Of a stretch of 22,488 nucleotides of DNA, positions 1 to 21,094 are shown in pieces (within the stretch, counting starts at the first letter, position 1; the number at the start of each line of letters is the position of its first letter). A model generated the notes under the pieces. The model was given only the letters and a program-made list of their open reading frames with translations. It made no database searches and was not told the origin of the DNA. The translations under genes were made by a program, and so were the position numbers. The stretch comes from a virus, in IMG/VR virus record IMGVR_UViG_3300047552_000998, positions 1-22,488 of that record; one strand, written 5' to 3'.

Positions 1-215
1 ATATATTGAGCGGCCATGCCGCTGTCAAGGGCTCCCGGTCGAATCAACGCAATAACAGCCGACAATTCCCATAGATTGCGGGGCTGGATCTTACGAAGAT
101 TGTCCTGTACCAGATATGATTCCATCTGGAAACACCCGAAGGTGCGGCCAGAACAAATCAAATCCCATACGGCAGGATCGTCGTACTTGATGCTATCGTA
201 AGAAATCTTTGTCAT
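1..215 (-). CDS. dnaE: DNA polymerase III alpha subunit, C-terminal piece of a split DnaE (partial, runs off left edge)
   Basis: Seventy-one residues are visible before the window ends. They align with the part of bacterial DnaE that follows the palm KFDFLGL motif: a YDDPAVWDLICSGRTFGCFQ block (family pattern DD..S...L..G.T.GVFQLES), then QMES, then ALIRPGALDSGM (family ALYRPGPLxSGM). This block belongs to the palm/fingers boundary and should lead into fingers, beta-binding and perhaps OB regions beyond the edge. It has its own ATG, which overlaps the stop of the upstream gene as TAATG, so translation probably reinitiates from the small gene before it. The catalytic aspartates are not here; they are in the piece at 2418-3950. 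The two pieces must associate to make a working polymerase. The family assignment is firm; the total length is unknown. Confidence 0.9.
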   Translation of the reverse strand, partial: MTKISYDSIKYDDPAVWDLICSGRTFGCFQMESYLVQDNLRKIQPRNLWELSAVIALIRPGALDSGMAAQY

Positions 216-424
216 TAGGAAATGATAACCGCGTGTCTGGTGATATCAAACCGGACAAACGTAGATGATTCAACTTCTACGGGGTTGGAAACAACCATAC
301 CGTCTTCCTGTTCATACACAACCTCAACGGTTTCTGTGCGGATACCAACGTCGTCGCTAAGATCCGCCAACATACGCCGTAATTCACCTACTGTGATAAC
401 TTTGGTAGATTTACTGGATACCAT
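215..424 (-). CDS. Small hypothetical protein between the dnaE pieces
   Basis: This 69-residue protein is not recognised. It starts MVSSKSTKVITVGELRRMLA, with a short amphipathic helix containing ELRRMLADL and then acidic beta-rich sequence. The layout resembles many small phage proteins that begin 'TVGELI..L..L..D..V', but no function follows from that. I chose the ATG at 424 over a longer reading to 466 because a strong AAAAGGA site lies six bases upstream, and because the longer start would overlap the previous gene by 79 bases instead of 37. Its stop overlaps the start of the C-terminal dnaE piece (TAATG), so its translation probably sets that of the polymerase piece. Confidence 0.7.
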   Translation of the reverse strand: MVSSKSTKVITVGELRRMLADLSDDVGIRTETVEVVYEQEDGMVVSNPVEVESSTFVRFDITRHAVIIS

Positions 425-903
425 ACAAAATCCTTTTCTGGCAACTGGACCTGCTGCTTGCCCCACAAAGTAATACGCTTAGCCGTGTCTAAAATCTTGG
501 ACATTTCCTTGGGCTTGATAATACAGTACGACGGCTTCTCTGTTTCAATTCCATTAAACATGACTATGCAAGAGTCTTGCTTGATATAGGAAATAAGATG
601 ACCGACTTTCAGATGGAATACATCGTTACGAGGTCGAGAAAACTTAATCTCGATCTTAAACTTCTGTCCATCTGGCGTTTGAAGCATAAAATCGGCGTTG
701 GTATTAACTTGATGATCGGCCAGCAATTCTCCCGAATTATCTACGCCATGATCTATTACCTTATACGCTTTGCTGCGTCGGCTGGATAGATCCTGCACAT
801 AGGCATTCATTAATACAGATTCGATACGTGTTGATTCTTTAATGTCAGACGCAAACTGCTTGACCGACCTAGAATCTCGCCGATAACTATACTTTTTGGC
901 CAT
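388..903 (-). CDS. Putative PD-(D/E)XK nuclease-fold protein between the dnaE pieces
   Basis: This 171-residue basic protein has a candidate restriction-endonuclease-fold core. D71 lies in NADFMLQ, followed by an E-x-K pair (E85, K87) in FKIEIKFSR at the spacing usual for PD-(D/E)XK enzymes. An upstream acidic residue such as E59 could complete the metal site. The N-terminus is rich in Lys and Arg (MAKKYSYRRDSRSVKQ) and may bind DNA. I see no second domain. It could be a Holliday-junction resolvase-like enzyme, a repair nuclease or a free-standing homing nuclease. Its place between two halves of a polymerase gene makes the last worth considering, but the motif alone cannot decide. It starts two bases after the exonuclease stop. 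Confidence 0.55.
   Translation of the reverse strand: MAKKYSYRRDSRSVKQFASDIKESTRIESVLMNAYVQDLSSRRSKAYKVIDHGVDNSGELLADHQVNTNADFMLQTPDGQKFKIEIKFSRPRNDVFHLKVGHLISYIKQDSCIVMFNGIETEKPSYCIIKPKEMSKILDTAKRITLWGKQQVQLPEKDFVWYPVNLPKLSQ
431..437 (-). promoter_or_regulatory. Ribosome-binding site AAAAGGA deciding the start at 424
   Basis: The minus-strand sequence AAAAGGA lies six bases before the ATG at 424. The same core and spacing occur before the starts at 9754, 12614 and 17054, which supports this start over the longer reading to 466. Confidence 0.7.
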
Positions 904-904
904 A

Positions 905-1546
905 TTAACTCTTTGAAATAGACATTTTCTTATTGACCTGCCGGAACAACTTCATAAAACGCACGAAGGCTTTGGCTGTTAGGCTTACGTCCTCCTCGGC
1001 GTCGTGGTTCGCGGTGGTTCGAGATTCGCCCAGAATGTTTAATAGAGTGTCAAGTTTGTAGTTATTGACCTCGCGATTAGACTCAAAGAGTACAAACATA
1101 AGGGTGGCGGTATCAATAAAGTTAACATGGAAGGGCCACAACTTATCAAGGTCTTCCTTGGTCTTGCATACCTTGTGTCGTAACATAGTAGTACGCAGCC
1201 AATCCCAGTCGAATTTACTGTTGTGCCCAACAAAGTAGGGGTTGCCCATGCGTTTCTTGCTGTCGTTGACGGAGTTTACCCACCGCACAAGATCCTCAAG
1301 AACCACCTTGATATTCAAACCATCCTTGCACGCCTTATCAAACAAATCCTTGCCAATAACCCGAATCGCTTCCTCGGAGGCTGCGGCCGGATTAGTCGGC
1401 TTGACCAGCCACGTTTTGTGGCCCGAGGGGTGGTCTTCAAAATTACTGGCGTTAATAGCCTTAGCAGAAATTTGCACAATATCCTGCTGATCCGGATCTA
1501 GGCCGGTTGTTTCCAAGTCGATGACAATATAGTTACGTTCATTCAT
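905..1546 (-). CDS. DnaQ-like DEDDh 3'-5' exonuclease (probable polymerase proofreading subunit)
   Basis: This 213-residue protein has the three exonuclease motifs of the DnaQ/epsilon DEDDh family. Exo I is VIDLETTG with D10 and E12. Exo II is VGHNSKFDWDWL with D113 (or D115). Exo III is NHDAEEDV, an H-x4-D arrangement with H181 and D186. It should remove mismatched 3' ends in single-stranded DNA and would act with the phage DnaE, which has no proofreading domain of its own. The gene sits between the two dnaE pieces in the same transcriptional unit, which supports that partnership. Its length fits a stand-alone exonuclease with a short tail that could carry a polymerase-binding segment. The start overlaps the stop of the previous gene as TAATG. 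Confidence 0.9.
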   Translation of the reverse strand: MNERNYIVIDLETTGLDPDQQDIVQISAKAINASNFEDHPSGHKTWLVKPTNPAAASEEAIRVIGKDLFDKACKDGLNIKVVLEDLVRWVNSVNDSKKRMGNPYFVGHNSKFDWDWLRTTMLRHKVCKTKEDLDKLWPFHVNFIDTATLMFVLFESNREVNNYKLDTLLNILGESRTTANHDAEEDVSLTAKAFVRFMKLFRQVNKKMSISKS

Positions 1547-2070
1547 TAGAGCACCAAATAATTTCCGCCGTTGTCGTCCGTATCGTTGGAGGCAACAGTC
1601 TTTGTATTCTGACGAGCGTTGATAATCACAGACGTATTGTGATCTATCTTAACATAAGAGGGTAATATCGTATAAAATGAGTACACCTGATTAGCGGTCA
1701 ATAGTTTCTCTTCCTTGGCTCGCAACTTATCCAAGGAATATTCGCCCCGAGAAACATATTCTACAGCCGCCGCCCCATCAATCAACTGCTTAAAAACAGC
1801 CTTTGAACGGTCAGGCCATGGCGAATCCATATTTTCAAACGGCAGATATACCATGTAGGGCCGACGATGCTTCATGGCGGCAATAGCCGCCCACTGTTCG
1901 ATTCCCGGGGCTAGCCCGGTTACAAGCACAAAGTCGTTACTCTGTTCTTCGACGATAGTGTTAATGGCGGCGATAACCGCCTTCTGATCCGTATTAGTCT
2001 TCTCTTCGCCGAAGCCGCCAATAGGACCACCCTTCGACAATCGCGGACCAATAAATGTATATGTCTTCAT
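1546..2070 (-). CDS. SLOG-superfamily (YpsA/DUF1273-like) nucleotide-binding protein
   Basis: This 174-residue protein has a Rossmann-like SLOG core. A first strand, TYTFIGPRLSKGG, carries a glycine turn. The family signature VTGLAPGIEQWAAIAAM (compare YpsA-type 'G.A.G.Dq.aA..A') is followed by PYMVYLPFENMDSPWP and a REYS.DKL.A segment, as in the YpsA group. SLOG proteins bind nucleotides or nucleotide-derived ligands and occur in conflict and signalling systems; the ligand here is unknown. I start it at 2070, two bases after the upstream stop, because the family begins with this first strand and the six extra residues of a longer reading add nothing. A second SLOG gene lies at 7604-8068. Confidence 0.8.
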   Translation of the reverse strand: MKTYTFIGPRLSKGGPIGGFGEEKTNTDQKAVIAAINTIVEEQSNDFVLVTGLAPGIEQWAAIAAMKHRRPYMVYLPFENMDSPWPDRSKAVFKQLIDGAAAVEYVSRGEYSLDKLRAKEEKLLTANQVYSFYTILPSYVKIDHNTSVIINARQNTKTVASNDTDDNGGNYLVL

Positions 2071-2071
2071 A

Positions 2072-2425
2072 TTACCGCACCAACTCAATCTTCTTGTTAG
2101 AATCGGGAGTGATAAGACGGGCCTGATTCATTACCTTCTCAATTGCCGCCAGATGCCGCCGCAGAGTAGAATTAAGCCCTGCCACGGCCTCTTCGAGCGT
2201 CTTAGCGTTCTCAATCTTAATCTCGCCCATCTGCAATCCCTGTGCAGTAGGGATAGGAACGGCGAGACTGTAATACTTATCGTGGTTAGCGGAAGGAGCA
2301 ATCGTTCCGCAACAATTGGTCAGCGGGGTATATTCCCGAACCACAAGCGACTCCTGATCGGTTTCAATAACAAAATTACGAGTCTCAATCACTTTGCTAA
2401 TAACGAGGTCTGTATACTCAACCAT
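2072..2425 (-). CDS. Hypothetical protein directly after the N-terminal dnaE piece
   Basis: This 117-residue protein is not recognised. The N-terminal two thirds look beta-rich (LVISKVIETRNFVIE, YYSLAVPIPTAQG). The last third is helical (TLEEAVAGLNSTLRRHLAAI). Two adjacent cysteines (NCCG, about residues 38-39) are not a metal site on their own. It shares eight bases with the end of the upstream polymerase piece (ATGGTTGA), so it is translationally coupled to it. That location allows a role in polymerase assembly, but nothing in the sequence shows one. Confidence 0.75.
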   Translation of the reverse strand: MVEYTDLVISKVIETRNFVIETDQESLVVREYTPLTNCCGTIAPSANHDKYYSLAVPIPTAQGLQMGEIKIENAKTLEEAVAGLNSTLRRHLAAIEKVMNQARLITPDSNKKIELVR

Positions 2426-3950
2426 TAATCATCTCCATCATATTATCAATCTTCTCAATCGCACTTACGCCCAGCAGGTCAAACTTGACACCGCCACAAT
2501 ATTCGGTCCATACCTTATCCAACATAATAATTCGCCGTCCATCCTGTTCAAGTACCGGCAAGAATTCTGATAGAGGAATATCCCCTACCACCAATCCTCC
2601 GGCGTGTCGTCCATGTCCGCGAATCGTATTTGTTAACTTACGGGCAATATCCATTTCAAACTTATATTCAGTGTACGCATCATGCACAACTGGCACGTTA
2701 TCAATACAATAGTCAATAATATTGTATGCGGGATCGTCAGCCTGAATATCTGCCAACTCGTCCTGAACCTGTGCCTCGTTGACCATTTCTTTCGTGATCG
2801 TATTGGCTACGTCATACGACTTGCCTAGTACGCGGAAAACGTCTTTGATAACTGCCGCACCCTTCATTTTCTGGAAGGTCATAATTTCGGCACACCGCTC
2901 AACGCCGTACTTTTGAGCAATCCATGTTTTCAGGTCTTCGCGAATAGACGGGTGAAAATCCATATCAACGTCAGGTAGAGAGTTAGATGAGCCAGCAAAT
3001 CGAGCCTTATTGATGAAGCGAGAAAACACAAGGCTTCTAGGGGCGTCATATGCTAGGGCTGGATCAGGACAAATAGGGTCAACATCGCAAATACCAGTCA
3101 GATACGAAACAAGACACCCTACAGCACTACCACGCAAACCTACACTCTTACCTTGTTTCGTGGAGTAGGAGATGAAATCACGGACCAGTAGCATATAGTT
3201 ACAGATATTAGCCGCCTGCATAACGCCGATTTCTTCCTTGACACGCTCGGCGTAGACCTTCTGTAAAGGTAGATTATGCTTTAGTCGTTCGTGCAAGCCC
3301 CGCAGTTTCCATCCATTGCGGCATAGATTCAAAAGGTAAACGTCGGCGTTATCAATTTCCGCCCCATTTTCGATACACTTAGGGATTCTGGGCTTAGCCG
3401 CTACACTAAAATACTCTAGTGAACCCACCCAATTCGGTAAATTCTCGTCACATACCAAATGCCCTACAAAGTTGTCAGCAAAGAACTTTTGATTGTCTTC
3501 CGACACCATACGGTCTTTCAATGTAGTCTTTTCGGTAATGCAGACAATAATTTGCTGATAGAGTACGTCTTCGGGCTTGGCATAGTATACAATATGGGAA
3601 AGGTCGCTGGCAGAGGGTCGATATAGATTAGGATATTCGCTAAAATCCCCGGTATATGCTTTACCGCTGGTATTTACATAAGATACACACTTAAGCAATT
3701 CAAGCCACCCGGCGTGGTTCTTAGCAATAACCACTTCCCGTCCATTTGTAGTAGATAAGTGGCATCCAACGATTGGTAGAATCTTAGTCGCGGCCTTTTT
3801 GTTATGCTTTTCGAGTAGCGACAGGAATTCCGGAATCCCAGACACGGAATCGGTATCTGCCAACATAATACGATTCGCCGATAGAATAGTGTGATTTACA
3901 GAAGGGTATTCCCATGATCTTCTAATACTTTCTGGTCTTGTTTGGACCAT
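2418..3950 (-). CDS. dnaE: DNA polymerase III alpha subunit, N-terminal piece (PHP-like region and palm) of a split DnaE
   Basis: This 510-residue protein is the first part of a C-family replicative polymerase. Residues 1-90 correspond to the PHP domain but are short and degenerate: RIMLADTDSVSGIPEF replaces the usual ALTDHGNM.G..EF, and the N-terminal HxH is missing. The palm follows, with GLRGSAVGCLVSYLTG and LPDVDMDFHPSIRED carrying catalytic D327 and D329, then GRHAGGLVV, then GVKFDLLGV carrying D491. The protein stops 20 residues later at MMEMING, where a normal DnaE of over 1000 residues continues into the fingers. That continuation is encoded at 215 and beyond. The start overlaps the previous gene by 55 bases; it is the only ATG that keeps the PHP strand NHTILSANR. 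All three palm aspartates are present, so catalytic function is plausible once the second piece binds. Confidence 0.92.
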   Translation of the reverse strand: MVQTRPESIRRSWEYPSVNHTILSANRIMLADTDSVSGIPEFLSLLEKHNKKAATKILPIVGCHLSTTNGREVVIAKNHAGWLELLKCVSYVNTSGKAYTGDFSEYPNLYRPSASDLSHIVYYAKPEDVLYQQIIVCITEKTTLKDRMVSEDNQKFFADNFVGHLVCDENLPNWVGSLEYFSVAAKPRIPKCIENGAEIDNADVYLLNLCRNGWKLRGLHERLKHNLPLQKVYAERVKEEIGVMQAANICNYMLLVRDFISYSTKQGKSVGLRGSAVGCLVSYLTGICDVDPICPDPALAYDAPRSLVFSRFINKARFAGSSNSLPDVDMDFHPSIREDLKTWIAQKYGVERCAEIMTFQKMKGAAVIKDVFRVLGKSYDVANTITKEMVNEAQVQDELADIQADDPAYNIIDYCIDNVPVVHDAYTEYKFEMDIARKLTNTIRGHGRHAGGLVVGDIPLSEFLPVLEQDGRRIIMLDKVWTEYCGGVKFDLLGVSAIEKIDNMMEMING

Positions 3951-4147
3951 ACTACTTTAATCGGAGGCGTAGGAGTCACTGAGTCACGCGGAATGATGTA
4001 CGCTACAGGCTCGGGCGGGTTCGGTGGAGTTCCCGTTTTTGTCGCGAGTCTACGAATCAGGGCGGCTGCAACCTCCTCCATCGCCATTCGATTCTTAAAG
4101 TGAATACGGTAGTCTTGGAAAAACTCTCTAATTTCAATCTCGGTCAT
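3896..4147 (-). CDS. Small proline-rich hypothetical protein
   Basis: This 83-residue protein is not recognised. It has a helical N-terminal half (IEIREFFQDYRIHFK, MEEVAAALIRRLATK), a proline-rich linker (TGTPPNPPEP) and a short tail ending KVLEDHGNTLL. A GGAG site lies about seven bases before its ATG, which itself overlaps the nuclease stop as ATGA. Its 3' end overlaps the start of the dnaE N-terminal piece by 55 bases. It does not contain the missing PHP histidines, so it is not a detached start of DnaE. Helix-linker-tail architecture suits a small adaptor, but this is only a shape argument. Confidence 0.65.
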   Translation of the reverse strand: MTEIEIREFFQDYRIHFKNRMAMEEVAAALIRRLATKTGTPPNPPEPVAYIIPRDSVTPTPPIKVVWSKQDQKVLEDHGNTLL

Positions 4148-5139
4148 GTGATAACTCCGGTAATAGTTTTCTCATCAACGAACGACTTAGGCTTACGTTG
4201 ATCGCCCGTCGTCTTTGCACTACAAGTCATTTGAACAAAAGGAACCGCCTCTTGGTATCCGTGGGCTTGGGCTAATTCATATGCGGTATCACAGATAGAA
4301 CGCCCGCCGTCTTCAACTGTTTGCATACCGTAATAACACGATTTATAGCATTTGTAGCGTTCCTTACTACGCAGACCGTTTTCCTTGATACGCATTGGCG
4401 TGTTATCTTGGGAAATAGTCTGAAAATGCCGCCGCATAACGTCTACAGTCTTAATCTCGTCGTCGAGATCCATGGACACACTGTAAACTTTGCGGGCCTG
4501 AATATATACCAGTGTCAGCAGTCTATACTTATACTGCGGGTACATTTGCTTGGCGACAAGGTTATATAGACGTAACTGGATATCCTTTTGAAAGTCGTCT
4601 AGCGTCTTAATCCGACCGGTATTCCAGTCTTTGGCGGATTTACCCGTCTTATAGTCGATAATCTCAATAGTATCTTCGTCGATTTCTACTACAAGGTCAA
4701 TAACGCCGTTAACGGCCAGCCGACCGTCTTTGCCGTCATATTTATAGCCTAGACCCGGCTTATCAAATTCATAACGAAACTTCTGCTCGACGCCCAAGAT
4801 TTTACGGTGCTTATCAGGGCCGCGATTACTTCTCGCGATACGATCTACCCATGTTAAGCAAGATTCGTAATCCTCTTCGGTAAAGGTAAATCCAGGGTTT
4901 TCTTTAATGCACCGGTTAAAGCAAATACGAGTAATCTTGGGTAAGTCGTTTGTTATAAAGCATTTCTTGCCGCGTTGGTGACAAAGAGCCTGCAACTCCA
5001 AGATTTTATGGAAGCAGACGCCAAGAGCCGCAGCCTTACCAGCCGGAGAACTAATCCGGCACATATACTGTAGATAATACTTGAAAGGGCAGTCGGTATA
5101 TGATTCTACGCCCGACTTAGATAGACTGGTAACTCTCAT
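4144..5139 (-). CDS. PD-(D/E)XK exonuclease of the Cas4/AddB/RecB-like group, possible Fe-S protein
   Basis: This 331-residue protein has the ordered motifs of RecB-type nucleases. They are SYTDCPFKYYLQ at the N-terminus, H44 in GVCFHKILE, D148 in VNGVIDLVVEID, the D-x-K pair (D162, K164) in EIIDYKTGK, and a QLRLYN helix. Cysteines C17, C264, C268 and C283 bracket the domain in the way of AddB and Cas4 enzymes, whose four cysteines hold a 4Fe-4S cluster, although the spacing differs. The likely role is 5' or 3' resection of DNA ends for phage recombination or replication, together with the RecA-like protein. There is no CRISPR array here, so calling it Cas4 would be misleading. Its start overlaps the SGNH gene stop as ATGA. 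Confidence 0.87.
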   Translation of the reverse strand: MRVTSLSKSGVESYTDCPFKYYLQYMCRISSPAGKAAALGVCFHKILELQALCHQRGKKCFITNDLPKITRICFNRCIKENPGFTFTEEDYESCLTWVDRIARSNRGPDKHRKILGVEQKFRYEFDKPGLGYKYDGKDGRLAVNGVIDLVVEIDEDTIEIIDYKTGKSAKDWNTGRIKTLDDFQKDIQLRLYNLVAKQMYPQYKYRLLTLVYIQARKVYSVSMDLDDEIKTVDVMRRHFQTISQDNTPMRIKENGLRSKERYKCYKSCYYGMQTVEDGGRSICDTAYELAQAHGYQEAVPFVQMTCSAKTTGDQRKPKSFVDEKTITGVIT

Positions 5140-6609: not shown

Positions 6610-6805
6610 TACCACGCTCACTTTCTGATAAACATTCTACTTCGATATTATACTGCCCCAAATCTTTGATAACATCGGGGGTTAAGTAACCAAACGGCGT
6701 TTTAACTTCGATTTCTAAGTGATCTGACATACGCAAGGCGTCTAGAACATAGTATTGAGTGTATTCGTAGCGTGTCATAAGTTCATTTACCGTCTTTAAT
6801 TTCAT
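6560..6805 (-). CDS. Small hypothetical protein downstream of the RNase H-NADAR gene
   Basis: This roughly 81-residue acidic protein is not recognised. It begins MKLKTVNELMTRYEYTQYYV and continues with a helix (DALRMSD), a strand pair (EIEVKTPFGYL) and a second helix-strand unit ending VYRVTRQ. The open frame extends to 6937, but that upstream part lies inside the NADAR domain and uses a different frame, so I take the ATG at 6805 (22 bases of overlap). A second candidate is the ATG at 6778, four bases after the upstream stop. Neither has a strong ribosome-binding site. Nothing indicates a function. Confidence 0.6.
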   Translation of the reverse strand: MKLKTVNELMTRYEYTQYYVLDALRMSDHLEIEVKTPFGYLTPDVIKDLGQYNIEVECLSESERGNVYRVTRQISADEPIE

Positions 6806-7616
6806 CTCTAATTTGCATCCATGCGAAACCAAGCAGGTTAGTACCTGTACCGTCTTTACCACATCCCCATATATAGTCGTATGGGGAATTCTCAACCAAT
6901 CGAGCATCGCCTGTGGACAATAGCAACGCTCGTACATCTGGGTGCTGCTGTATTTTATGACGCAGACCGTTCAGCATAATGTTATACTTAATCGCACCCC
7001 AATCTTCTCGCATCTTGACGGATTGAGCAATAAGTTTGGCCTCTTTAGGGGTTGATGCTAAACGAACCTTGCGAGCGTCGTCAATATCAACACACTTCAT
7101 CGCCTGATAGTAATGCTCAACCGTCGCGTACCAGATTTGATTAATCGTGACAGGATAGCGGGCGAAGTTGCTAAACGCTCCGTAGAAGTCGGAAGTACGC
7201 CAAAATTTGATCTCTGGTGGGTTCATAACAATTGCTCTCGTACAGGGGTCGGCCTCATTGTACGCTCGCGGGACCCATGTGAGTTCGATGTTCTTGGAAA
7301 AAAGACGACGACATTCGCGGCAGAGGCGGTTGAGAGGTTCAGATTTTGACTTATAATTCTCTTTGATCTGTCGAATGATTAACTGACTGTCGCCTTTGAT
7401 ATGAACCGGCTCGGTAATATGATTGGTACTAAACCACCGAAGCAACGACCGAACGCCAAGATACTCGGCTACGTTGGTAGTATTATTAGCCTGTTGTACG
7501 CCGCACCCAAACCTTTCTACTATATTGCCGATATCATCATAAATTACCCAACCATAATACATAATATTTAGACGTAAACTACCATCAAAATACGCTGTAT
7601 AGTTTATGTTGGGCAT
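6783..7616 (-). CDS. RNase H-like domain fused to a NADAR (YbiA-like) domain
   Basis: This 277-residue protein joins two recognisable domains. Residues 1-128 have the RNase HI layout: D11 in AYFDGS, E51 in NVAEYLG, D76 in IKGDSQL, and D123 in NEADPCTR, preceded by LTWVPR. All four acidic positions are present. Residues 135-273 match NADAR: IKFWRTSDFYGAFSNF, the TVEHYYQAMK helix with E167, REDWGAIKYN and YDYIWGCGKDGTGTN. RNase H removes RNA from RNA-DNA hybrids such as primers. NADAR proteins act on ADP-ribose or related N-glycosidic substrates, and some remove ADP-ribose from guanine in DNA or act on riboflavin intermediates. A fused pair could clear modified nucleic acid during replication; this is inference. 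The gene follows a SLOG gene with a 13-base overlap. Confidence 0.88.
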   Translation of the reverse strand: MPNINYTAYFDGSLRLNIMYYGWVIYDDIGNIVERFGCGVQQANNTTNVAEYLGVRSLLRWFSTNHITEPVHIKGDSQLIIRQIKENYKSKSEPLNRLCRECRRLFSKNIELTWVPRAYNEADPCTRAIVMNPPEIKFWRTSDFYGAFSNFARYPVTINQIWYATVEHYYQAMKCVDIDDARKVRLASTPKEAKLIAQSVKMREDWGAIKYNIMLNGLRHKIQQHPDVRALLLSTGDARLVENSPYDYIWGCGKDGTGTNLLGFAWMQIRDEIKDGK

Positions 7617-8068
7617 AGAAAGATTTTCTTACCGGAATTATAGAGGCTATTGATTAGGTCTTTGTGGCGATATTTAGCATTCAGGACGTAAATAAGGGCG
7701 TCGGATTCTCTGATGACATATTCCCATTTACGCATGATTTTGAGCGGCGAGAACACACCCTCGGACAAAATAGTTTGCTTGGCGGCACGGTGCCATAGAA
7801 ACTCATATTTATCCTTATCGGCGGGCCACTTATGCGACGGAGAAGTTTGAATCTGAATAGCCTCAAAGGGCACGTTATTGGTATAACAGGTTTCGGCAAA
7901 ATCTAATTCGCTACCAATAGTCATGCCAGTTATCCCAATGCACCGCTTATTGTACAAAGATAATACACGACTATAGACGTTTTGATGTTGCTCTTTTAAA
8001 CGAGTCTTGTCATATCCCCCCAACAAATCAGGGTATACGCCAATAATACCAATCTTAACAATATCCAT
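7604..8068 (-). CDS. SLOG-superfamily (DUF1273/YpsA-like) nucleotide-binding protein
   Basis: This 154-residue protein has a Rossmann-like fold. It has an opening strand IGIIGVYPDLLGGYD and the signature GITGMTIGSELDFAETCY, in which a small-residue turn (G48 to S53) is followed by an acidic residue (E54). It then has PFEAIQIQ, an SPSHKWP turn, and a C-terminal ESDALIYVLN strand that usually closes the ligand pocket. The order matches the YpsA/DUF1273 branch of SLOG. These bind nucleotides or nucleotide-derived ligands; the substrate is not known. The gene is flanked by a GuaB-family enzyme and the RNase H-NADAR fusion, so a purine-nucleotide or ADP-ribose ligand is reasonable but unproven. 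Confidence 0.82.
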   Translation of the reverse strand: MDIVKIGIIGVYPDLLGGYDKTRLKEQHQNVYSRVLSLYNKRCIGITGMTIGSELDFAETCYTNNVPFEAIQIQTSPSHKWPADKDKYEFLWHRAAKQTILSEGVFSPLKIMRKWEYVIRESDALIYVLNAKYRHKDLINSLYNSGKKIFLCPT

Positions 8069-9116
8069 GCGGAGTACCTTCGATGTATCCGTGCTGGGAT
8101 ACCTCTATAAACATAGCCTTTTCTTGCAGAAGAGAGATAGAATAGGCCCCTGAATATGTCATACCGGAACGAATCCCGCCAACATATTCACCCACAAAAT
8201 CTTTAATAGATCCGCCTGCCAAAACTTTGTAACTTATACCCTCTGGGGAAATTCCGGGGCGACACATACCCTTTTCTTTCTGTAGGTCGTGAGAAGACTG
8301 TCCGCGATACACTTTATATGGCAGCGAGTGGGACAATCCATGATACGCCGCCGCCGATTCATCACAGCCAGCGAACATCTTACCAATCATTACAGCGTTG
8401 GCTCCTAGGGCCAAAGCCTTCACAATATCGCCGGAATTTCTAATACCACCATCGGCAATAAGTTTGATATGGGGAGGGATAGAACGGCGTATGTTATATA
8501 AAGCCGACGCCTGTGGAACACCGTGGCCGGTTACTAACCGCGTTGTACAGGCCGCACCGTTGCCAATCCCGACCTTGATACACTCAACGCCGCATACTTC
8601 ATGCAGCCACTTTGCCGCGTCCACAGTACAAACGTTCCCCGCAATAATATTGAGGGTGGGGTCGAGGTTACGAACCGAGCGAATAAAACGCTCCATCTTG
8701 ACTGAATGACAATGGGCAATATCAATACAGATATCTGTTACGCCGAGTTTCAGGAGTTTATCGACAAACATGATTTCGCCGTCAGCCACACCGACCGAAA
8801 CCACCGGATCAATCTCGGTTACGCAGGCGTTAACCGCGTCTAGACGCTGTTCTTCGGTATCAAAGAACCGATGTAGAATACCTAACCCGCCTAATTTAGC
8901 CATGGCGATTGCCATTTTTGGCCCGGTTACACAGTCCATGTTGGCACTAATAATTGGAATACCTAGGCGGCAGGTTGGCGTTAATACAGTATCAAGATCC
9001 ACCCTAGAATCTAATCGAGATTCCATGGGGCAATACTGCGGCATCAGTGTAATATCGTCATACGATAAGAACCGCGTGGGAATGTATTCTTCAAAGTTGG
9101 CGTTAATGAATTTCAT
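8055..9116 (-). CDS. guaB: GuaB-family IMP dehydrogenase / GMP reductase-like enzyme without CBS domains
   Basis: This 353-residue (beta/alpha)8 barrel has the family features in order. The N-terminal LSYDDITLMPQYCPMESRLD segment is followed by PIISANMDCVTG, HRFFDTEEQR and the phosphate-binding VGIGNGAACTTRLVTGHGVP, which holds catalytic C190. ADGGIRNSGDIVKALALGAN follows, then VGGIRSGMTYSGAYSI near the C-terminus. IMP dehydrogenase normally has about 490 residues with a CBS pair; this protein has the bare barrel, like GMP reductase. The ending IEGTPHG recalls the IMPDH 'ESHPHD', so the direction of reaction (IMP to XMP, or GMP to IMP) is open. It would adjust the guanine nucleotide pool during infection. 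It starts within the stop of the dNMP kinase (ATGA). Confidence 0.87.
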   Translation of the reverse strand: MKFINANFEEYIPTRFLSYDDITLMPQYCPMESRLDSRVDLDTVLTPTCRLGIPIISANMDCVTGPKMAIAMAKLGGLGILHRFFDTEEQRLDAVNACVTEIDPVVSVGVADGEIMFVDKLLKLGVTDICIDIAHCHSVKMERFIRSVRNLDPTLNIIAGNVCTVDAAKWLHEVCGVECIKVGIGNGAACTTRLVTGHGVPQASALYNIRRSIPPHIKLIADGGIRNSGDIVKALALGANAVMIGKMFAGCDESAAAYHGLSHSLPYKVYRGQSSHDLQKEKGMCRPGISPEGISYKVLAGGSIKDFVGEYVGGIRSGMTYSGAYSISLLQEKAMFIEVSQHGYIEGTPHGYC

Positions 9117-12614: not shown

Positions 12615-13089
12615 TCATGTTCCTTTTTGCCCATCCGCGTTCTTTGGCTAAATTCTGTACCATCTGCGTGATAAATTGTATTCTTTGATCGACATTGCGT
12701 AAGGTGTTTAACTTACTTTCGGCCAAGACACGAATACGCTCAAACTTGGCAGCGTCTTCATTATTGGCGATAAAGAACGTCATCTTTTCCTGATAGGTGT
12801 AGTCTGTTAGATTACGGACATGCTGACCAAGCAAAATACGGATGTTGGATTCAGCCCACTTGATCGCAGTTTCATGGCGATTTAACTCGGTAGTAAGATA
12901 AGCGGCATAACACGATAACTTAACGCAATACGCCGCCAGCGTTACAGAGTCGAGTTTACCAATATCGCCGCTACTCAAAATATGCAACATTGCATCAATA
13001 TCGGTTTGGGGTTCAAATGACGGCAATTTAATCTCCGCTTTGTACACTTCTAAATACTGCTTGACGGCGGTAGGATCTGCGATATTCAT
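12601..13089 (-). CDS. Hypothetical all-helical protein downstream of the Vsr-like nuclease
   Basis: This 162-residue protein is not recognised. It is almost wholly helical (VTLAAYCVKLSCYAAYLTTE, HETAIKWAESNIRILLGQ, FERIRVLAESKLNTLRNV), with no metal or nucleotide motif. Its size and place between recA and the helicase fit a recombination mediator such as UvsY, but I see no residue pattern that proves it, and UvsY is a little shorter. It starts within the stop of the Vsr-like gene (ATGA), so it is translationally coupled to it. Confidence 0.75.
   Translation of the reverse strand: MNIADPTAVKQYLEVYKAEIKLPSFEPQTDIDAMLHILSSGDIGKLDSVTLAAYCVKLSCYAAYLTTELNRHETAIKWAESNIRILLGQHVRNLTDYTYQEKMTFFIANNEDAAKFERIRVLAESKLNTLRNVDQRIQFITQMVQNLAKERGWAKRNMNVSN
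12621..12627 (-). promoter_or_regulatory. Ribosome-binding site AAAAGGA for the zinc-ribbon protein
   Basis: AAAAGGA lies six bases before the ATG at 12614, inside the end of the previous gene. This is the same core and spacing as at 424, 9754 and 17054. Confidence 0.65.
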
Positions 13090-13469
13090 AATAGGGTCCA
13101 GTCGTCCTCTGTAAAAATCTCGATAAGTTTGATACTATTCAACCGGCAGAAGTCTTTCTTACGCTGGTCCCGTTCCTGATGTTCTCGGAATCCGGCCTCA
13201 TTCTTATGGAAAAATTTCACAAACTTATTATGCTGTTCGCCCTGTATTTCTACGGCAATTTTACGCTTTGGCAGCCAGAAATCAAAGTAGAACCCGCATT
13301 CAGGAATATATACATCCTCTAGGATCGGATCAAACGGATACTTAAGTTTAACCTGCTGACCAGTGGTATATTGCAGGGCAGACTTACATCCGTCTTCGTT
13401 CCTCATAGGGTATTGCGAAGGGCGGTTTTCAATTTGGATTTCTTTGCCTGTTAGTGTACGTGCTTTCAT
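13086..13469 (-). CDS. Vsr-like (EDxHD-type) endonuclease-fold protein
   Basis: This 127-residue protein has the compact Vsr-like nuclease arrangement. E51 lies in LEDVYIPE and D63 in YFDFWLPKRK. The diagnostic AVEIQGEQHNKF carries E74 and H80, then REHQERDQRKKDFCRLNS carries D101, and the protein ends in KLIEIF. Free-standing phage proteins of this type are often homing or strand-nicking endonucleases; Vsr itself nicks at T:G mismatches. Lys and Arg are plentiful at the N-terminus. It starts inside the recA stop (ATGA) and is coupled to the next gene the same way, so it is embedded in the replication operon rather than inserted with spacing. Confidence 0.75.
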   Translation of the reverse strand: MKARTLTGKEIQIENRPSQYPMRNEDGCKSALQYTTGQQVKLKYPFDPILEDVYIPECGFYFDFWLPKRKIAVEIQGEQHNKFVKFFHKNEAGFREHQERDQRKKDFCRLNSIKLIEIFTEDDWTLL

Positions 13470-20323: not shown

Positions 20324-21094
20324 TTATAATACACTATTATCATAAGCGAAAGAGGCGTCCACAATCGCCGGGATAGATGCGATATCATAAATACCCGAAC
20401 AGGACCAACTGTTCATTTCTACCACTTTATATACCCCTTCGTCGGTCATATAGGCTAAATCAATAACATAATGCGACCCAACATTTATCCGGGGTTGTAA
20501 ACGTATTAAAGTCGTATAGGCGGTTTGTAACAGTTTTGGCGACACCAAAACAGTTTTCTCGTTGTAAACCCCGTGCGTAACGATTTTCCCGTTGGCGATA
20601 TGGAACCGAATTTCGTGCCCGATATTATGGACAGGTCCGACTACGGCCATTTGAGTGTCTAATTTTGCCTCGATTCCAACCTCTTCTAAACTCTGCCCTT
20701 CTTCTAGTATAAAACCGGACCACGGCTTCCATCCAGAGTTAGGGCGGCAAAATATACGCGGAGCATGGCAACGGCGAGATTCCCTTAATACGCCCACCGG
20801 AATCCACGACGCCCGATAATTAACCGCCTGCGGCCCAATCGAGGCGGCATATTGAGAGTAGTCGAAGGTTTCCAAAGTATCGCCGATAGAGAGGCAGGAC
20901 CGATATTCTGGATATTTACGCCACAGTTTACGCATCCCGTATATGCTCATTAAAGCACAGGTGGGAGATAAATCGGGACCGCTAAAGGTATCTAGAGTAG
21001 GATCGTAGATAATGATTCTGTCGCTAGCATACGCCCGAATCGCCTCGTTAATCTCATGGGTATCAAATTCGGTGTCGAGTAGTAAACACTTCAT
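20324..21094 (-). CDS. ATP-grasp domain protein (DUF4343/R2K-like)
   Basis: This 256-residue protein carries the C-terminal ATP-grasp metal and nucleotide site. HYVIDLAYMTDEG holds D212, followed by VYKVVEMNSWSCSGIYD with E226 and N228, as in the DUF4343 (R2K-type) family. The first 110 residues vary and end in GPQAVNYRASWIPVGVLR, a likely substrate region. ATP-grasp enzymes of this type are predicted to make amide or peptide bonds, and phage copies may modify proteins or small molecules. The substrate here is unknown. It overlaps the macro-like gene as ATGA and has AAAGGT seven bases upstream of its ATG. Confidence 0.8.
   Translation of the reverse strand: MKCLLLDTEFDTHEINEAIRAYASDRIIIYDPTLDTFSGPDLSPTCALMSIYGMRKLWRKYPEYRSCLSIGDTLETFDYSQYAASIGPQAVNYRASWIPVGVLRESRRCHAPRIFCRPNSGWKPWSGFILEEGQSLEEVGIEAKLDTQMAVVGPVHNIGHEIRFHIANGKIVTHGVYNEKTVLVSPKLLQTAYTTLIRLQPRINVGSHYVIDLAYMTDEGVYKVVEMNSWSCSGIYDIASIPAIVDASFAYDNSVL

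Follow-up and report, generated by a model that had tools for sequence, protein, structure and literature searches.

Separate palm and fingers genes for the DnaE polymerase, with an exonuclease gene between them, in a clade of uncultured tailed phages

Results

Genes of the divided dnaE locus

The stretch of DNA analyzed here (the window) is the complete IMG/VR virus record IMGVR_UViG_3300047552_000998, 22,488 bp in length and itself a virus fragment, in which the clear genes lie almost all on the minus strand. The replicative C-family polymerase DnaE is represented in it by two genes of this strand, namely, dnaE-N (3950-2418), encoding the N half, and dnaE-C, encoding the start of the C half from position 215 to the contig edge, with five tightly packed open reading frames (ORFs), overlapping or abutting, between them (Table 1). 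The coordinates and residues by which an earlier note had recognized this arrangement were confirmed.

Both M1 and M29, the latter after an upstream stop, are possible starts of dnaE-N. The palm nucleotidyltransferase (NTase) domain of the DnaE type, PF07733, with its three carboxylates, was found at residues 217-494 (1e-52), and a weak PHP match at residues 27-100 (3e-4), this domain being degenerate and N-terminally shortened, with the metal ligands lost. All three catalytic aspartates of the palm, D327, D329 and D491, are located on dnaE-N and are invariant in the alignment. The protein is alignable with phage DnaE proteins up to its final residues, its C-terminus reads ...GGVKFDLLGVSAIEKIDNMMEMING, and its last residue lies 19 residues past D491; it thus ends shortly after this residue, as noted earlier, although the distance had been given as 20. 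The gene dnaE-C opens with the sequence MTKISYDSIKYDDPAVWDL...FGCFQMES and matches the fingers family PF17657 (6e-19); the HhH/clamp-binding and OB regions were seen only in C halves of relatives, where complete C halves comprise about 470-560 amino acids (aa).

When profiles were mapped onto solved Pol III alpha subunits, the N half extended to Taq 637 and the C half started from Taq 640 (E. coli 584); in terms of Pfam, the break separates the palm (NTase) domain from the fingers domain. Since the two ends map to near-adjacent residues of Taq, no block is lost at the break, and the second piece resumes at the next conserved block, as previously proposed.

Table 1. Genes of the divided dnaE locus and selected other genes of the window
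Feature	Coordinates	Strand	Size (aa)	Remarks
dnaE-C	3..215	-	71 visible	start of fingers half, own ATG at 215, truncated by contig end
ORF	215..466	-	83	starts at GTG or possibly at an internal ATG; its stop and the dnaE-C ATG overlap as TAATG
ORF	388..903	-	171	weak nuclease-like matches only (RE_TdeIII 0.014)
DEDDh 3'-5' exonuclease (epsilon/DnaQ-like)	905..1546	-	213	PF00929 1.4e-14; phrog_192 'DNA polymerase exonuclease subunit' 5.5e-29
SLOG/YpsA-like protein	1546..2088	-	180	PF06908 4.6e-9
Protein of unknown family	2072..2425	-	117	ATG overlaps dnaE-N stop by 8 nt; no family match
dnaE-N	2418..3950	-	510 from M1	reduced PHP domain, palm, thumb
PD-(D/E)XK (Cas4/RecB-like) exonuclease	4144..5139	-		PF12705 4e-23, phrog_69 3e-27; upstream, same replication module
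RNase H-NADAR protein	6783-7616			one ORF joining RNase H-like (RVT_3) and NADAR domains
IMP dehydrogenase/GMP reductase family protein	8055-9116		353	phage-encoded
Homing-endonuclease-like protein	13086-13469			phrog_9084; directly downstream of recA
R2K clade ATP-grasp protein	20324-21094			PF14243 1.8e-14

Distribution and phylogeny of the split

A scan with the single N piece of the window found no relative, so that profile scans were required, and tblastn against 50,697 phage records returned distant DnaE only, the best-placed match having 32% identity. A set of 234 loci was obtained from a profile scan of IMG/VR, a second scan with N halves of the split type and a scan of GTDB genomes. 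ORF-level profile checks of these and of phage loci identified 93 split and 138 fused loci; in 15 further loci the N half ends normally and the stretch contains no C half, mostly since the contig ends. With phage G, phiT1 and L043 left out of the 93 split loci, the window and 89 further loci remain, and these 90 share the same break.

The 89 loci, found in the search for the same break among related phages, originate nearly all from IMG/VR and from many metagenomes, and none of them encodes alpha as a single polypeptide. Clustering at 80% identity yielded 38 distinct palms among the split loci, window included. The distance between the halves in the 90 loci ranges from 657 to 7,310 bp, with a median of 1,011 bp. 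In the palm tree of 146 representatives the split group comprises 41 rows, including three contig-end cases, and all 41, the window among them, form one clade (Shimodaira–Hasegawa-like approximate likelihood ratio test, SH-aLRT, 99) with no fused palm inside, so that fused close relatives were not found. The branch of the window is long and groups with L017, L097, L098 and L102; in this subclade, the halves are between 0.67 kb (L017) and 7.3 kb (L103) apart.

Sharing of the break by 89 further loci is more than chance, and the split is a clade-wide feature, neither a one-off nor an assembly fault. The earlier opinion that a break without an intein is unusual does not hold for this lineage, and precedents are present in the phage isolates phiT1 and P1201 (see below). 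The clade represents a large and widespread group of uncultured tailed phages. Split dnaE was also found on two contigs binned into metagenome-assembled genomes of Lokiarchaeota, L171 (SHMW01000005.1) and L174 (JABXKB010000087.1), which are probably misbinned phage contigs or viruses of that community; the contig L171 contains genes of DnaB, primase, dNMP kinase and the PD-(D/E)XK protein in the order of the window, the latter in the same place upstream of dnaE-N.

The exonuclease gene between the halves

In 89 of the 90 loci, the exception being L171, the halves enclose a DEDDh exonuclease gene related to that of the window, and this gene often directly adjoins both of them; a homologous gene near dnaE was found in none of the 138 fused loci. 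Five genes do separate the halves in the window, as the earlier note stated, but the only constant feature across the clade is the exonuclease gene, the other four being window-specific or sporadic; a relative of the SLOG/YpsA-like gene is also located between the halves in L023 (1.6e-9). Assignment of the window exonuclease to the DEDDh type is based on its DxE...H..D core and RNase_T fold family.

Over 67 complete triples, the pairwise distances of the three genes correlate (N-C 0.89, N-exonuclease 0.90 (Spearman), exonuclease-C 0.86), and none of 300 permutations gave correlations as high. In the listed pairs with unsaturated dS, all three genes had ratios of nonsynonymous to synonymous substitution rates (dN/dS) of 0.02-0.24. 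Regular expressions, with inspection of the exceptions by eye, showed the palm Asp triad in each of the 92 split loci checked and the DEDDh core in each of the 89 exonucleases.

The exonuclease gene could be a passenger, inserted once between the halves and having no functional tie to the polymerase, given that the split occurs in L171 with no detectable exonuclease and in phiT1, L043 and P1201 with none, and that other genes also accumulate in the gap. Retention of the gene in nearly all loci, its co-inheritance with both halves, conservation of its active-site residues, the match of the window protein to the phage polymerase exonuclease-subunit family phrog_192, and the position of an exonuclease gene abutting fused dnaE in PB1-like phages make such an origin unlikely. 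No ORF fusing the exonuclease with the N or the C half was found in any locus.

Identification of the system as PolC was rejected, as the exonuclease is a separate gene rather than an insertion in the PHP domain of one chain. Two phages were discarded as split cases: Bacteroides phage DAC19, in which the exonuclease homologue is present and dnaE is absent nearby, and Pbunavirus PB1 (considered because of a short Pseudomonas phage PA5 DnaE in BFVD), in which dnaE is fused and the exonuclease gene is located directly upstream.

Junction of the halves and inteins of the clade

At the break, the N tails extend 0-23 aa past the palm, and the C halves open with their own Met at the boundary. Rejoining of the halves by a split intein or by RNA splicing, with a working enzyme of one chain, has parallels in the clade itself, where DnaE contains split and cis inteins at sites other than this break and the parts are separated by homing-endonuclease-like genes (L029, L023, L050), and in phage G and Jayan-type phages, where dnaE has intron/intein-like interruptions. 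However, in the loci read, the N halves lack a Hint segment of ~100 aa at the palm/fingers break and the C halves lack an intein C segment with a terminal Asn before Cys, Ser or Thr, in agreement with the reported absence of an intein at the junction of the window; the real intein fractures of the clade look wholly different. The space between the halves is filled by successive coding genes that overlap both halves with their starts and stops. Rfam detected no intron in the window at 1-4200, a result weak alone, since the presumed introns of L016 (Jayan) and L012 (phage G) were also missed. Together, these features leave covalent rejoining highly improbable.

L029 (11855-14847) and L023 (12843-15695) have an extra break of the C half at FNK/C...SN/SHS, where Hint segments are present and a nuclease-like gene separates the parts, and L050 (7409-10702) has a break of the N half at GRG/C...HN/SAAG, again with such a gene between the parts; the polymerase of these three loci is encoded in at least three genes. 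DnaE inteins in one frame are present in L038, L049 and L050. In Bacillus phage G (L012, L005; gp329-gp339) and Bacillus phage Jayan (L016; CDS0041-0043), dnaE is interrupted by an intein and by intron-like segments; both were rejected as instances of the same break, since their interruptions are of the intron/intein type and lie, at least in part, elsewhere.

Other polymerases, predicted structure and variation of the PHP domain

Among 24 records of 72-230 kb, 23 contain exactly one palm, and neither DNA_pol_A nor DNA_pol_B was found in any; terminase was detected in nine. Split DnaE is accordingly the only polymerase of families A, B and C found in these large relatives, and the second complete polymerase gene considered in the earlier note did not appear in them. 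The remaining record, L032 (IMGVR_UViG_3300024358_000009, 206 kb), contains two palm genes of the split type and size and two fingers genes, 146 kb apart, which may represent a duplicate replicase or joined contigs.

The split gene might also be a decayed dnaE or an assembly chimera in a virus that uses another polymerase or that of its host; the window is a fragment whose contig edge falls within the C half, and its PHP domain is reduced. Against this, the same arrangement is present on 89 other contigs from many metagenomes, the catalytic residues are kept, dN/dS is low where measurable, the divergence of the genes is correlated, and PolA and PolB are absent from the 24 large records. Decay or chimerism is strongly contradicted by these observations and highly improbable.

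The N half of the window, modeled alone by AlphaFold2, gave a predicted local distance difference test score (pLDDT) of 87.2 and a predicted template modeling score (pTM) of 0.85, and the C half of the relative L017 a pLDDT of 90.0 and a pTM of 0.81. The top Foldseek match of the N half was Taq Pol III alpha 2hpi (4e-27), and the C half of L017 matched Pol III alpha 7pu7 (5e-21). Since the separate models are confident and match Pol III alpha, each half would plausibly be a stable protein.

An additional N-terminal extension, containing a CGC motif and a third Cys immediately ahead of the fingers, is present in many C halves (L019, L021, L024, L027, L040, L153, L155, L167 and L174); this extension may form a metal site at the subunit junction. 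A search of the N half and the exonuclease for a fourth metal ligand tracking the extension showed a correlation mainly with retention of PHP ligands, together with one His/Asn column. The N halves of the CGC subgroup retain the PHP histidines, which have largely disappeared from the window's subgroup, suggesting that some members of the clade lost the PHP function and kept the exonuclease.

Genomic surroundings in the window

Upstream of dnaE, in the order of transcription, are genes of RecA, DnaB, primase, dNMP kinase, an IMPDH-like protein, the RNase H-NADAR protein and the PD-(D/E)XK nuclease; dnaE of the window is part of a phage replication module. No terminator-like site was found on the minus strand at positions 1-4300.

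Discussion

Comparison with known systems

Parallels to the cut of the clade were found in other phages. In Rossellomorea phage phiT1 (gp20/gp19/gp18, PV767480) and the IMG/VR locus L043, dnaE is cut at the same palm/fingers boundary, also without an intein; unlike in the clade, one small gene (49 aa in phiT1) and no exonuclease gene is located between the halves. The palms of both fall among fused phage DnaE in the free tree, and a common split group including them was not rejected by the approximately unbiased test on a reduced set (p 0.54); their split may have a shared origin with that of the clade or be a separate gain, giving one or two origins. Corynebacterium phage P1201 (NC_009816) has two annotated polymerase genes, gp59/gp58, with the same cut as the clade, but these overlap by 29 nt with no exonuclease gene between them, and dnaE of the related phage Darwin is fused; the gene may have been split separately and recently in P1201, or the record may contain a frameshift. 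As the cut recurs in the clade, phiT1 and P1201, the palm/fingers boundary appears to tolerate breaks. In Cellulophaga phage phiST (L254:41632-45232), dnaE is present as two ORFs overlapping by 8 nt; the cut lies elsewhere, inside the palm, so that it was rejected as the same break and may represent another break site or a frameshift.

The domains of the clade and their order are those of bacterial Pol III alpha (E. coli and Taq DnaE), which likewise has a DEDDh exonuclease partner, epsilon; in the clade, alpha consists of two chains with the exonuclease gene between them. Cyanobacterial DnaE is likewise encoded by two genes; its halves, like the 'fractured genes' of phages, reportedly carry split-intein segments and are ligated, whereas the palm/fingers break of the clade has no such segments. 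Essential enzymes made of separately produced halves without an intein include PolB of Methanothermobacter, consisting of two polypeptides, gp43A/43B of T4-like phages and NrdA of phage Aeh1; these belong to enzyme families other than the C-family replicase and do not have the gene order with a proofreader between the halves.

Intein-split and frameshifted genes alone are mentioned in one survey of bacterial alpha subunits (PMC3919608), and the passages found in a second survey contain no split alpha (PMC12926913). No description of such a split-DnaE clade was found in a non-exhaustive search of the literature.

A probable two-subunit alpha with a co-encoded proofreader

The evidence very probably reflects a two-subunit alpha, cut at the palm/fingers boundary and assembled non-covalently, with a co-encoded epsilon-like proofreader. 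DnaE-N would supply PHP, palm and thumb with the three catalytic aspartates, and DnaE-C the fingers, the HhH/clamp-binding region and OB. The two halves lie on the same strand and, together with the exonuclease gene between them, probably form one operon. The halves would join via the large palm-fingers surface of normal alpha to form one active polymerase, and the exonuclease, acting as epsilon, would provide proofreading, most needed where PHP has lost its metal ligands, as in the window. Two separately translated pieces, as the earlier note proposed, thus remain the best reading of the cut, and their function as two subunits is predicted.

Several points weigh against this interpretation. 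Binding of the halves and polymerization by the pair are predictions, and only 71 residues of the C half are visible in the window, which is a long branch with degenerate PHP and nearest relatives of ~42% palm identity. The halves are 5-7 kb apart in the close relatives L097, L101 and L103, which weakens the argument from translational coupling. Absence of other polymerases is not absolute, because the records are linear fragments, beyond which another polymerase could be encoded.

Bacterial replicase alpha subunits are, to our knowledge, either one chain or rejoined by inteins. The clade is likely a widespread lineage of uncultured tailed phages whose obligate Pol III core is encoded by several genes and whose alpha permanently consists of palm and fingers subunits held non-covalently together with a co-encoded proofreader, and it would be the only known lineage with a C-family replicase stably split without splicing. 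The results suggest that, in a common group of environmental viruses, the replicase may be overlooked or mislabeled by annotation pipelines. The boundary offers a natural split site for polymerase engineering, and a lineage keeping palm and fingers apart represents a natural test of whether two proteins can jointly form the polymerase active site at the replication fork.

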